Shown here: positions 45,217-50,819 of the stretch, piece after piece
How positions within the stretch are numbered: position 1 is the stretch's first letter
How the letters are laid out: each line of letters starts with the position of its first letter
DNA from: Hondaea fermentalgiana
Taxonomy: Eukaryota > Sar > Bigyra > Thraustochytrida > Thraustochytriidae
Reading direction: 5' to 3'
NCBI GenBank assembly: GCA_014084085.1
Contig: NPFB01000039.1
Span: forward strand, 464 to 57,033
DNA length: 56,570 nucleotides
Translations under genes and position numbers: made by a program
The notes under the pieces: generated by a model
What the model saw: the letters and a program-made list of their open reading frames with translations, nothing else
Databases searched by the model: none
Told to the model about the DNA's origin: nothing

Positions 45217-47124
45217 TCACTTTTTTGCAAGATTTGCGGCAGAGCGCGCTTGTTCCATGTCGAGAATGGCCTTCCAGCCGTCCTTTGTGAGCTCATCCCG
45301 GCCGTGCGATTTTTCCCAGAGCTTTGCGAGCGTGAGCCAGAGGTCAAGCGTCTCGGCTTTGACGCTCTTGCCGTCTCTTTGACGTGCTGCAACATAGGTT
45401 TGCTCAATTTGGGTCGCCAGATCTTGCGACACGGTGAAGTCCGCGTTTGGACCGGCCACGCGTAAGCGTGTATCCGCAACGAACTTCCGCAAGTCCTGAT
45501 CTGATACAGGGGCAACTCCTCCATGCTGACTGGCAATCGAAGTTGGGGCTGCGCGATCCTGCTCAAGTGCAAGTACACAGTCTGCGCCCTCCACAATGGC
45601 TGTGCGGTTGGACGTAGCCACAAGCACTGGCGTGTCAACGTCCCAATCGCAGGCAAAGTATTGAAAGTCGTAGTGGAGTTTCTGTTGTTGAACAAGCTGC
45701 TGCAGCGCCTGCATGTTGCGTACGCCTTGATCATTAAGCACACCTTCCTGCAAGGCGGTTTCGTTGACGATGATTGGAGTTCCGTCACAGAGCTGGAGCT
45801 GGCCTGCGCAGAGGCGGTTCGTTTCGTAGTCCTTTTTAGGAAAGAGGCTCTTGGAGGAAAGATCGGCCACAGCAAGCTCCAGGTAGTGCGAACGCGGCAA
45901 GACGTTGGCAAGGACATTGTGCAGGGCCTTGGGGATCGTGCTGTTTTCAGGGATCTTGGCGAGCGCGAGTGCGAGCTTTCCAACGGGCCGAGCTGAAGCA
46001 CCCTCGCCGGCTCGCACCGTGGAGGAAAGCATCCAGAGAAGAACGTACTCTGCAGCGAGACGGTCGCCACCAATCGCGGTGGCAATGCGAGAAAGCAGGG
46101 CTTCGCGAACGCGAGTTGTCTCTGCAGTCGTCGATTCCGATGAACTCGCCTTGGGAGATGCGTCAATGGAAAGAGAGAGTGTCGGGCCGGAGCGATGCGC
46201 AATGCAATGAATGCGAGGCACAAGGCTGCTAGGGGGCCGTCGTGCTGCGATTTCGAGACGCATAAAATCGTCCGCAACGGCTGCGGTCTCGTCGCTTTCT
46301 GCGTCGGACCCGATGGAAGAATCAGGACATTGCGCGAGGACGCCGACGACCTCGATCATCTGACTCACCTTGATCCCTTCCATGGCAGCATCATACATTT
46401 TCACGATGCAAGGCATATCGCCAACGTTGTTCACGTCAAGCTCAAGCGCAAGCTTGTGTGCCGAGGCGGCTGCCGCTGTCGAGGATGCTGGTTGTGGGCT
46501 TGTCTCTGGTTCACCGAGCAGAGGGCGCTTTTCGACGGCAGTGTCGTCACGAGCTGGGTCTTGAAGCGCGACGCGCTTGCGATGGGCTCGCGCAGCGGGA
46601 TGCATGCTGTCGGCATTGGATGCTTTCGGGGGCGAGCGAGCGGGTCCTGCTGCAAGTCGGGCCTCCCGTGCCCAGGCCGACTCGCCGGGGACAGGCACAC
46701 AATACAAGGGAAGCCGCTCGGAGAGACCGGCAATGTCCTGGGCACTTGGCGCTGCTGCACGGTTGGATGCAACGTCATGATCGAACTCGCGATACTTGAG
46801 CGTCTTGAGCGAGCCGCTGTCGCCATCACGAACGACGCAGTCGTAGTACTCCGGATCAAAGGTGTCCTGGACCATGGCCCGGTATCGCACAAGCATGCCA
46901 TGGTGTAGTGTCCCTGCGCGAAGGCCGTCGCGTGTGAGCCAAGGGATGGACTCGAGTGCTTGTTTGGAGAAGAGAGTTTCCTCGCTCAGAATCTTCGCGG
47001 CACCCCATGAGTCCTGGGCTCCTTCCTGTTTGAGGACTGCTACGTCTCCGCCTTTTGCCTTTGCACTGGCTACAAAGTGTTCGTCGACCACGACGAGCGG
47101 GGAGTCCACGATCTTGGCGTCCAT
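45217..47124 (-). CDS. MCMBP: Mini-chromosome maintenance complex-binding protein
   Basis: MCMBP (plant ETG1) binds MCM3-7, helps assemble and later unload the replicative helicase, and supports sister-chromatid cohesion; it is nuclear. The product is 635 residues, near the family's usual size. Diagnostic blocks are GMLVRYRAMVQDTFDPEYYDC (about 76-96), LPLYCVPVPGESAWA, an OB-like segment PCIVKMYDAAMEGIKVSQMIEVVGVLA, ALLSRIATAIGGDRLAAEYVLLWMLS and, toward the end, DFQYFACDWDVDTPVLVAT. A Ser/Ala/Pro-rich spacer of about 80 residues precedes the OB-like part. It lies back-to-back with the ArfGAP-FYVE gene across 399 bases. Confidence 0.92.
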   Translation of the reverse strand: MDAKIVDSPLVVVDEHFVASAKAKGGDVAVLKQEGAQDSWGAAKILSEETLFSKQALESIPWLTRDGLRAGTLHHGMLVRYRAMVQDTFDPEYYDCVVRDGDSGSLKTLKYREFDHDVASNRAAAPSAQDIAGLSERLPLYCVPVPGESAWAREARLAAGPARSPPKASNADSMHPAARAHRKRVALQDPARDDTAVEKRPLLGEPETSPQPASSTAAAASAHKLALELDVNNVGDMPCIVKMYDAAMEGIKVSQMIEVVGVLAQCPDSSIGSDAESDETAAVADDFMRLEIAARRPPSSLVPRIHCIAHRSGPTLSLSIDASPKASSSESTTAETTRVREALLSRIATAIGGDRLAAEYVLLWMLSSTVRAGEGASARPVGKLALALAKIPENSTIPKALHNVLANVLPRSHYLELAVADLSSKSLFPKKDYETNRLCAGQLQLCDGTPIIVNETALQEGVLNDQGVRNMQALQQLVQQQKLHYDFQYFACDWDVDTPVLVATSNRTAIVEGADCVLALEQDRAAPTSIASQHGGVAPVSDQDLRKFVADTRLRVAGPNADFTVSQDLATQIEQTYVAARQRDGKSVKAETLDLWLTLAKLWEKSHGRDELTKDGWKAILDMEQARSAANLAKK

Positions 47125-47523
47125 GGTTGGCTTCTCCTGTTGCGCAAAGGTCCGCCGTGAAAGTTTCGATGCGGTACGATGCGGTGCAGGATATCACGAA
47201 GCTTTTTGCCGGTCGCGACAGCACGCGCGCCTCCAGCCCAGGCGTCTCGTTGCGTCTCGTCGCGCCTCCCCTTGCCTCGTGTCGCCTCGCCTAGCCTCGC
47301 CTCCGATGTTGTTGAACTGGCCAGCCTAACGACCGTCCGAAATCGTTCGTGCTTTCCGGCTGTCGCGATCAGCGATGGCGAAAGCGCACTTGCAAGAGGC
47401 GGATAGCCCATTTGCGGGTGACCGTTTGCGGACTTGTACGCGGCGTCAAAAAGCATTTGCGGCGTCGGGCGTGGCAGAACTCGAACGCGACGAGGGCGAG
47501 AGGCGACTCGGACGCGGGCGAGG
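47125..47523. other. Divergent promoter region, MCMBP / ArfGAP-FYVE
   Basis: 399 bases between two start codons, the shortest divergent region in the window, with GTCTCGTCGC-type repeats near 47250-47310. Sharing of elements is possible but not shown. Confidence 0.6.
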
Positions 47524-48336
47524 ATGTCGCGGCGCGCGCTGGACGTGGACCAGCTGCAGGCGATCGTGAAGCGCGAGGGAAATGGAGCGTGCGTGGACTG
47601 CGACGCGGAGAACCCGATGTGGGCGTCGGTAACGTATGGGACGTTACTCTGCCTGGAGGATGCCGGCAAACACCGCGCGCTCGGCGTGCAAGTGTCCTTT
47701 GTGCGGTCGTTGGACCTGGACGCGTGGAAGGACGTCGAGGTGGCAAGTATGATGGTGTCGTCGAATGCCTTTGTCAATGAGTTTTTCGCGCTGCACGGCG
47801 ACGCGTCAGAAACGATCCCGCGATATCTGAGCTTGACCGCGGCCAAGTTGCGAAAGCTGCTCGCGCGGCGACGCGAAGCTTATTCGGAGTCGTCAACAGC
47901 GGCGATCACTGGTGCAGATGCGGAATCTGCGTCGCGGGACGACACGGCGAGTGCTTCCTCTTCCTCTGCCGCAACTGCTCAAGTCGAGGAGCTGAGTGCC
48001 GAGGAAACGATCGAGGTTCTCGATTTACAGGAGCGATTTGCGACGCGGGCGCTTGAGCGTGAGGCAAGCTCTAGGGACACGGAGGAGCAGCGCCCTTGGG
48101 TACCTGACGAGCTCGCCCCGATCTGCATGCTTTGCGGGCGCACATTCACAATGATTTTGCGAAAGCATCATTGTCGCAAGTGCGGACGCGTGGTTTGTAA
48201 ATCGTGCGCGCCAGCCAACAATAGCAAGCCCATCCCGCAGCTTGGATATCTTTCTCCCGTGCGTCATTGTCGAGCATGTTTCGAAAGCGCAGCTATTACG
48301 TGGCCGCGGCATGCCCCGGGTCCATCGCCAGCATAG
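47524..48336 (+). CDS. ArfGAP-FYVE protein
   Basis: ArfGAPs stimulate GTP hydrolysis on Arf GTPases in vesicle traffic; FYVE domains bind PtdIns3P on endosomes. The product is 270 residues from ATG 47524. The ArfGAP domain (about 8-118) has CVDC (Cys23, Cys26), WASVTYGTLLCLEDAGKHRALG and VSFVRSLDLDAW. Arg51 is the arginine finger. The fourth zinc ligand, normally Cys in CLEC, is Asp46. A Ser/Ala/Glu linker leads to a FYVE domain at about 192-255 with WVPD, RKHHCRKCG and RHCRAC and all eight Cys. The two domains alone make an unusually small protein. It would direct Arf inactivation to early endosomes if the zinc site still folds. Confidence 0.9.
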   Translation: MSRRALDVDQLQAIVKREGNGACVDCDAENPMWASVTYGTLLCLEDAGKHRALGVQVSFVRSLDLDAWKDVEVASMMVSSNAFVNEFFALHGDASETIPRYLSLTAAKLRKLLARRREAYSESSTAAITGADAESASRDDTASASSSSAATAQVEELSAEETIEVLDLQERFATRALEREASSRDTEEQRPWVPDELAPICMLCGRTFTMILRKHHCRKCGRVVCKSCAPANNSKPIPQLGYLSPVRHCRACFESAAITWPRHAPGPSPA

Positions 48337-48725: not shown

Positions 48726-50819
48726 TCAAATCGGCGAGCAGAGCAGCTTGCGATCGCAGGCCGAGAGCGCGACGCCAAAGGCTTGGAGCGGAGAGAGCGG
48801 CCAGGAAACATCGAGAGTGAAGAGCTCGGCCTCGGGGCTCTCGGCGACCTTGCCAAACTGCAAAGCGACGTCGGAGCTGCCGTTGACCATGAGCTGAAAG
48901 TTTTTGTTCGAAGGAAGCGTAACGCGGCCGCAGAAATCGAGTGAGAAGGCACTGATGGTGGGAAGCCAGTATGGCGTCTTGTTGGCGCCAAAGATGAGCT
49001 TTTGCTGGTGATGTGCCGGGGACATGGTGTTCTCGGCGGCGGCACGGCGCAGCGATGCGCTAAGGCGCTCGTCGTCATGGGTAGGGAGATGGACGCGAGT
49101 GTTCCAGTTCGGCCTCTGCTCGCGATTGCGCTTGCTGCGAGTGGAACGGGACGCGGAGGTTCGCCGCCGCCGCAGTGGCGAGGGCGGGAGGATGGGCGAA
49201 AGGAGAGGCATCTCATCTTCGCCAGCCACCACAGCGTGCACACCATCAAGGCCGGAATCGTCCTCGGGGCGGTTGCCGTGGCTGTTTTCGTTTTCCTCTT
49301 GTTGTTGTTGTTCATCATCGTCATCATCATGGTCGTCGTCGTCATCATCATCATCTTCTTCATCTTCTTCATCGTTGTCGTCGTCGTTCTCGATGTCCAT
49401 GTCCTCATCAACTTGCTTTTCGTCCTCGTCACTGATGTCATCGTTTTGCTGTCGTTGATCATGGTAATTGTTGTTGTGAAGGTTGTCATGGCGGGTAGCA
49501 GAGCCAGGCGCGTCAGCGTAAGCGTCGGCGTCGGTGCTGCGAACAGGTGATTGCTCCTTTGGGGAGGAGGAGCGCAGAGACCTTTCCGGGTGAGGAACGA
49601 TGGCGTCGAGAGCGTTCTCCGCGTCTCGGTCGGCATCTTGATTGTTCCGGGAGCGCGACGCAAGAGCATCGCGCGAGCTTTGTGCACGTTCCAGGCTGGG
49701 AAAGCAAACATGGATGCGGCGCGGCCCCACGGCGCGGCCGAGCCTGTTTTGCGTGTAGCGCACAGCGCCAACCTCGACCTGGTCGTCGGGACCGTAGATG
49801 GTGTGCTCAAGCCCGCGGAAGGAGCTGGCGACATGGCCCAAATAGGCATCCGAGCAACGGTCGAGCGTAGTTCCGAGCGGCGCCGAGACGTCCATGGAGA
49901 TGTCGAGCTGTGCGGTAAGTTCGTCAAGGCTTGTGGGCCCGTGAGATTGTGCATCGCTGATGTCGTCAACCTCGGGCCGTTTGTGGGAGATGGCGAGGAT
50001 TTGGTCGCCATATTTGGGTTCGTCCATGGAGGGCAGCGGACCTAGCGGGTAGCGCAGGGTTGTGGGCGCCTGCAAAAAGAGCTCGTAGCGTGTGGACGCT
50101 CCCTGTGCGCAGAATGCGCGAACGTAGCAGCGAACGACGCCGGCAGTTTGCGGTACGGGTGCAGTGAGAAAGGCCTTGCGTGCGTCGAGACTGTTGCGGA
50201 ATCGATGCGAGCCGATCCTGTCTCGCGGGACGTAGGCGATCTCGCCAAGGCGTCCGCGACAGAGGGGACACGAGCTGTGTTCGCGTCCGGATTTGCATTC
50301 CCTCCATTCGTAGATGCATTTTGCGTGCACGGGATGTTGGTTGCACTTGTTGGCGCAGGGGATGGGCGTGCGAGGGCGGCGCGCGGAGAATCCGTTCATG
50401 CAGATGAAGCAGTACTCGTCGGCATCGCTCATGACGGAGGCGGTGCTGCTTGTGATGGACCGTGTACCGTCAGACGAGCAGCTCCCGAGTCCAAGAAGGG
50501 GCGGGAGCGCCGGTGGCGGGACGGCGGTGTCGACGACGGAGCCCACGCGCTTGATCTTTTTGGCGCACGGCCTGCTGGTCGAGGTCGCCGACCGCCGCTG
50601 CTGTTGCTGTTGCTGTTGCTGTTGCAGCGGAGTCCTCTCATGGCGGTGATCGCTTCCGAGCGTCCGGTGAGCTTGCTGCTGCTGCTGCTGCTGCCGCTGC
50701 TGCTGGAGGTCCTCTTGGCGCTGCTCGAGGTCCTCCTCTTCGGGGCGCTCGAGCTCCTTGAGCGGCCGCACGTCGAGGCTCGACGTGCGCGCGCGCTTGA
50801 GTCTCGTCTGGCCCTCCAT
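48726..50819 (-). CDS. RING-Tubby fusion protein, putative membrane-linked E3 ubiquitin ligase
   Basis: The product is 697 residues from the ATG with first base 50819 (one further codon upstream is GTG). The first 130 residues are disordered with two poly-Gln runs. A RING-type zinc domain spans 137-188: CFIC, then Cys155, Cys159, His165, Cys168, and CPLC at 184-187, a C4HC3-like order. A tubby domain follows from about 225: CYVRAF, SDAYLGHVASSFRGLEHTIYG, VRYTQNRLGRAVGPRRIHVCFPSLE, then NKTPYWLPTISAFSLDFCGRVTLPSNKNFQLM and PLSPLQAFGVALSACDRKLLC at the end. About 200 residues of Arg/Ser, then Asp/Glu runs interrupt the tubby barrel between those blocks. Tubby domains bind PtdIns(4,5)P2, so a phosphoinositide-directed ligase is inferred. 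Confidence 0.88.
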   Translation of the reverse strand: MEGQTRLKRARTSSLDVRPLKELERPEEEDLEQRQEDLQQQRQQQQQQQAHRTLGSDHRHERTPLQQQQQQQQQRRSATSTSRPCAKKIKRVGSVVDTAVPPPALPPLLGLGSCSSDGTRSITSSTASVMSDADEYCFICMNGFSARRPRTPIPCANKCNQHPVHAKCIYEWRECKSGREHSSCPLCRGRLGEIAYVPRDRIGSHRFRNSLDARKAFLTAPVPQTAGVVRCYVRAFCAQGASTRYELFLQAPTTLRYPLGPLPSMDEPKYGDQILAISHKRPEVDDISDAQSHGPTSLDELTAQLDISMDVSAPLGTTLDRCSDAYLGHVASSFRGLEHTIYGPDDQVEVGAVRYTQNRLGRAVGPRRIHVCFPSLERAQSSRDALASRSRNNQDADRDAENALDAIVPHPERSLRSSSPKEQSPVRSTDADAYADAPGSATRHDNLHNNNYHDQRQQNDDISDEDEKQVDEDMDIENDDDNDEEDEEDDDDDDDDHDDDDDEQQQQEENENSHGNRPEDDSGLDGVHAVVAGEDEMPLLSPILPPSPLRRRRTSASRSTRSKRNREQRPNWNTRVHLPTHDDERLSASLRRAAAENTMSPAHHQQKLIFGANKTPYWLPTISAFSLDFCGRVTLPSNKNFQLMVNGSSDVALQFGKVAESPEAELFTLDVSWPLSPLQAFGVALSACDRKLLCSPI

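Follow-up and report, generated by a model that had tools for sequence, protein, structure and literature searches.

The stretch of DNA analysed here (the window: 56,570 nucleotides of contig NPFB01000039.1 from the thraustochytrid Hondaea fermentalgiana) encodes on its minus strand a 697-residue protein in which a RING finger and a Tubby domain share a single chain. We propose, with a probability of roughly two in three, that this protein belongs to a labyrinthulomycete family of RING E3 ubiquitin ligases that act as single subunits and use the Tubby barrel as a recognition module. The fusion is conserved among the relatives, together with the ligand order of the RING and a near-constant spacer, and the Tubby domain has lost the basic pair of the canonical pocket for phosphatidylinositol 4,5-bisphosphate (PIP2); these features and the predicted folds are computed results, whereas ligase activity, the choice of a ubiquitin-conjugating enzyme (E2) and the target of the barrel are inferred.

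A RING finger and a Tubby domain in one frame

The gene is one uninterrupted reading frame of 697 codons plus stop, 50819..48726, with no internal stop codons. Its ATG is backed by an alignment in which the N-terminus of a relative, P0002, falls at the same position. Its parts are as follows (pLDDT, predicted local distance difference test).

48726..50819, minus strand: RING-Tubby gene, 697 amino acids; ATG at 50819, stop codon 48726-48728
50412..50819, minus strand: N-terminal low-complexity region, residues 1-136; poly-Q runs and basic clusters
50256..50411, minus strand: C4HC3 RING, residues 137-188; ligands C137, C140, C155, C159, H165, C168, C184 and C187; putative E3 positions I139, W172, P185 and R188
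50145..50255, minus strand: spacer between RING and Tubby, residues 189-225; pLDDT block means of 91-97
49686..50144, minus strand: first half of the Tubby domain, residues 226-378; QAP...YPxG insert and QNR motif; His and Ala at the K330/R332 positions
49002..49685, minus strand: insert inside the Tubby domain, residues ~379-606; acidic, largely of low confidence
48729..49001, minus strand: C-terminal part of the Tubby domain, residues 607-697

The original prediction, made from the letters of the window, had placed a RING at residues 137-188 and a Tubby domain at about 225-697 in one frame, without naming the strand, and Pfam recovers both. Tub (PF01167) matches with an E-value of 7.8e-30 and 104.8 bits (Pfam cut-off 27), and a sequence search of solved structures assigns the Tubby part to 1s31 (1.3e-16). 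The domain begins at about residue 226, as expected, but is not continuous, most of residues 379-606 being an acidic insert; short elements predicted near both ends of this insert belong to, or flank, the barrel. On the RING side, zf-RING_2 (PF13639) matches residues 137-188 at 4.1e-4 with 21 bits, under the Pfam cut-off of 27.3, and the call is therefore weak on this protein by itself; among solved structures, its sequence matches the SWIM-RING of MEKK1 (0.0011) and RNF38 (0.002). Residues 1-136 are mostly of low confidence in a model built from 60 sequences, except for a helix predicted at 32-48.

The relatives make the RING call firm. Three protein searches gathered 79 proteins, that of the window included: the first two, each swamped by ~8,000 low-complexity candidates, yielded nine proteins apiece, and a query with residues 112-515 of P0005 yielded 78. 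The full RING ligand pattern is present in 59 of the 79, and P0075 is added as a sixtieth by its Pfam RING. Tub and zf-RING_2 are each hit, with E<=0.01, in all 60 proteins scanned, the window protein among them; the pairing is not a product of chance.

Could the fusion be an artefact, that is, two adjacent genes read as one frame or a join made during assembly? Seven members come from MMETSP transcriptomes (P0004, P0008, P0013, P0015, P0028, P0034 and P0046) and an eighth, P0040, carries an MMETSP1346 name; each has both domains in one sequence. The suspicion of separate transcripts is thus answered for relatives only. The same domain order and near-constant spacer recur in 59 proteins, eight of them transcriptome-derived, and a second uninterrupted RING-Tubby frame lies on contig C158 of the same genome, so that an artefact is barely credible. 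This second copy is identical to the Hondaea protein P0051 over 708 residues. The Hondaea genome (36.0 Mb, 238 contigs) holds nine Tub loci, of which the window gene and the C158 copy are the two RING-Tubby genes in its searchable part. A further Hondaea RING-Tubby protein, P0019, which is recorded on a contig of the same length as the window's contig, has no high-identity match in the searchable sequence, parts of the window's contig being N, and P0030 has none there either. No plasmid match was found for the window gene.

Ligands and fold of the RING

Twelve positions are invariant in the 60-row alignment (C137, I139, C140, P154, C155, H165, C168, W172, C184, L186, C187 and R188), and C159 and P185 are at least 90% conserved; the eight ligands in RING order thus comprise seven invariant residues and C159. 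Of the 59 pattern-positive proteins, 55 conform to a strict C4HC3 pattern that requires C-x3-C-x(4-6)-H, and 43 of these 55 read C-x2-C-x14-C-x3-C-x5-H-x2-C-x(13-18)-C-x2-C. Among the remaining four, the spacing from the third to the fourth Cys is off in three and that from the fourth Cys to His in one. The C4HC3 order read from the window alone is thereby borne out. An ordinary RING-H2 arrangement with H162 as a ligand was considered and rejected, H162 occurring in 2 of the 59 proteins against the high conservation of C159. By the usual cross-brace numbering, we take C137/C140/H165/C168 to be putative zinc site 1 and C155/C159/C184/C187 to be putative site 2.

The 60-sequence model (mean pLDDT 70.5, predicted TM-score 0.67) predicts confident folds for both RING and Tubby; residues 137-188 take a RING fold in it, zinc itself lying outside the model. 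The best structural neighbours of the modelled RING are RNF25 RING:UbcH5B complexes. They came from a second structural comparison; the 50 top rows of Foldseek alone contain no RING. By analogy with other RINGs, I139, W172 and P185 are presumably the E2-contact positions and R188 the linchpin, the latter because it aligns with the linchpin Arg of RNF38, an identification taken from the title of entry 9q8y. In the mechanism that we envisage, the C4HC3 RING would bind E2~ubiquitin through I139, W172, P185 and the linchpin R188, while the divergent Tubby barrel, 37-39 residues away, would recognise a substrate or a small ligand.

Some C4HC3 fingers, such as those of the plant homeodomain (PHD) type, read histones; the RING could accordingly be a zinc module that serves structure or protein binding and has no ligase activity, and the protein an adaptor. 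The invariance of I139, W172 and R188, the conservation of P185 and the E2-bound character of the nearest structural neighbours argue against this, and we consider it unlikely. PHD fingers carry a Trp at position -2 from the seventh ligand; the window protein has a Ser there, and none of ten aligned RINGs has a Trp at that place. The RINGv (MARCH-type) model matches 38 of the 60 proteins at E<=0.01 (best 3.7e-5), which indicates some resemblance. The RING-CH/RINGv core spacing is C-x-C-x7-H-x2-C, whereas 52 of the 55 strict matches have C-x3-C-x5-H-x2-C.

Among the solved structures matched by sequence, the RING (also called PHD) of MEKK1/MAP3K1 comes closest in the order of its ligands, a likeness of sequence, as MEKK1 is absent from the fold lists. 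The two share eight ligands and, in the aligned stretch, the C-x3-C and C-x-I-C motifs. They differ in that MEKK1 is a SWIM and kinase protein without a Tubby domain and has x4 between the fourth Cys and His, in contrast to x5 in those 52 of 55 strict matches. According to a passage of a review on MEKK1 (PMC4356348), the motif was modelled after the RING of Deltex 2, and its inactivation went through Cys438 and Ile440, which lie in the region that binds the E2. RNF38, for its part, lacks the C-x3-C stretch in the alignment. To our knowledge, neither RNF38 nor RNF25/AO7 has a Tubby domain.

A Tubby barrel without the canonical PIP2 pair

The original prediction had pictured a phosphoinositide-tethered ligase: by binding PI(4,5)P2, the Tubby barrel would keep the RING at the plasma membrane. 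The pocket does not favour it. At the positions of mouse Tubby K330 and R332, the aligned window protein has His and Ala; among the 59 RING-Tubby proteins, both are basic in one and neither in 44. In the mouse protein, R332H reduces the affinity for PI(4,5)P2, and K330A/R332A lowers it further, with membrane clustering nearly gone, according to a passage of PMC10445746. The canonical tubby-like protein of the same genome, Hf_C31, retains K330, R332 and R363. The column of R363 holds Arg in none of the 59 proteins, but K/R in 13 if the next column is allowed; since this result depends on the choice of column, the argument against the tether rests on K330/R332. We therefore regard a PIP2 tether as quite unlikely.

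The same alignment offers another candidate surface. The seven canonical rows have the K/R pair and lack Q250, Y257-P258 and R359. Because the Tubby part of the family is without the canonical pocket pair, recognition probably proceeds through a family-specific surface comprising these residues and others, and not through membrane PIP2.

The barrel also appears to be held at a set distance from the RING. If the count starts just past the last RING Cys and runs to the residue aligned with 226, the spacer measures 38 residues in the window protein and 37-39 in all 59 proteins, and pLDDT block means are 91-97 across residues 181-280, which suggests a fixed RING-Tubby geometry. More tentatively, at somewhat less than even odds, RING-Tubby proteins might form a separate multi-copy ligase class in labyrinthulomycetes, and possibly in other protists, in which the Tubby barrel, recruited as a rigidly mounted recognition module, has given up PIP2 sensing and reads a new ligand or degron with its QAP...YPxG...QNR surface.

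The insert between the two Tubby halves varies from 29 to 232 residues in the 59 proteins (including P0002, which is without the C-terminal half). Its acidic character could be taken to suggest a nuclear regulator, with Tubby and the acidic insert acting in transcription or chromatin while the RING modifies local proteins. A stretch with at least 7 Asp/Glu in 12 residues occurs in 36 of 59 members and in none of 7 canonical proteins (at least 6 in 12: 45 of 59 vs one of 7), and the N-terminal basic clusters point the same way. However, disordered linkers often have acidic runs, and 14 of the 59 are without one even at 6 in 12, making a nuclear role very unlikely in our view.

Family, descent and other Tubby routes to ubiquitin

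The reading that we favour, a family of single-chain RING ligases carrying a Tubby barrel, may be set beside the known ways in which Tubby domains meet the ubiquitin system. Passages of PMC6366083 tie plant tubby-like proteins (TLPs) to SCF (Skp1-Cullin-F-box) complexes by an N-terminal F-box and report that animal TLPs, and a good many of those in plants, keep the K330/R332 pair. In plant F-box TLPs as in RING-Tubby proteins, the Tubby domain comes after a module of the ubiquitin system at the N-terminus. They are unlike in that the RING replaces the F-box, no F-box being among the nine Pfam families that the 60 members hit with E<=0.01, and in that RING-Tubby proteins are nearly all without the K330/R332 pair.

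TULP4, which combines WD40, a SOCS box and Tubby, is likewise a Tubby protein tied to a ubiquitin ligase, in its case by a cullin-ligase motif. Neither WD40 nor SOCS box is among the nine Pfam families of the 60 members. Canonical proteins such as Tub and TULP1 differ in having no RING. The pairing with a RING is of interest since Tubby is otherwise tied to ubiquitin by an F-box or SOCS box: if our reading is correct, Tubby domains would have been linked to ubiquitination repeatedly, in this family by a ligase that is part of the protein itself. On the more tentative reading of a separate ligase class, this would be a third route, and one without need of a cullin. The family would also offer a compact setting in which to ask what a Tubby barrel recognises besides PIP2, and a natural experiment in which the fold is kept and its best-known binding residues are dropped, with a canonical tubby-like protein in the same genome.

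The earlier statement that no RING-Tubby family is well described agrees with the open-licence PubMed Central literature, where no description was found among the matches listed (titles and starts of abstracts). The pairing itself is already in databases, as Pfam pairs and under names like 'RING-type domain-containing protein' or 'Tubby protein-like'. What would be new is Tubby as the partner domain in a single-subunit RING E3.

In a quick tree of the Tubby part with 72 rows, 54 RING and 11 truncated rows are separated from 7 canonical rows by a branch with an SH-like approximate likelihood-ratio (SH-aLRT) support of 100. Fourteen of 86 rows were omitted from it. Two of these, P0002 and P0069, have no C-terminal half; the other 12 are long or divergent and comprise four RING-positive proteins, P0075, P0079 and six Tub loci of the Hondaea genome. 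With long rows included (84 rows), the group of RING and truncated rows has a support of 99/85 if P0075 is left out and of 93/19 if it is counted in. By label alone this tree needs 11 changes of RING state, because truncated RING-less rows sit inside the RING group. The computed trees thus show one Tubby lineage; a single origin is a provisional conclusion, since they hold few canonical proteins and no plant TLP. Three very divergent Hondaea Tub genes without a RING (L004, L006 and L007, on contigs C91, C81 and C20) group at 99/98, although the tree program warns of long branches meeting at that point.

Named sources of members are Hondaea fermentalgiana, Aplanochytrium stocchinoi and Mucochytrium quahogii, together with one Durusdinium and one Batrachochytrium record, both of which may be contaminants. 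The record from Durusdinium trenchii (P0003), which groups with the window protein at 98/73, is filed as 'Tubby-like F-box protein 2' despite its RING and the absence of any F-box match; the name is a misannotation, and the source is perhaps an associated thraustochytrid. The record from Batrachochytrium salamandrivorans (P0053, BASA81_001012) is a RING-Tubby protein nested inside other members and paired with P0029 at 95/85; it reflects either contamination or transfer into the fungus.

Beside the RING-Tubby gene and convergent with it, 47434-48336 on the plus strand encodes an ArfGAP and FYVE protein (Pfam 1.3e-24 and 1.1e-19). The frame at 45217-47124 on the minus strand encodes an MCM-binding protein (PF09739, E 1.1e-121).
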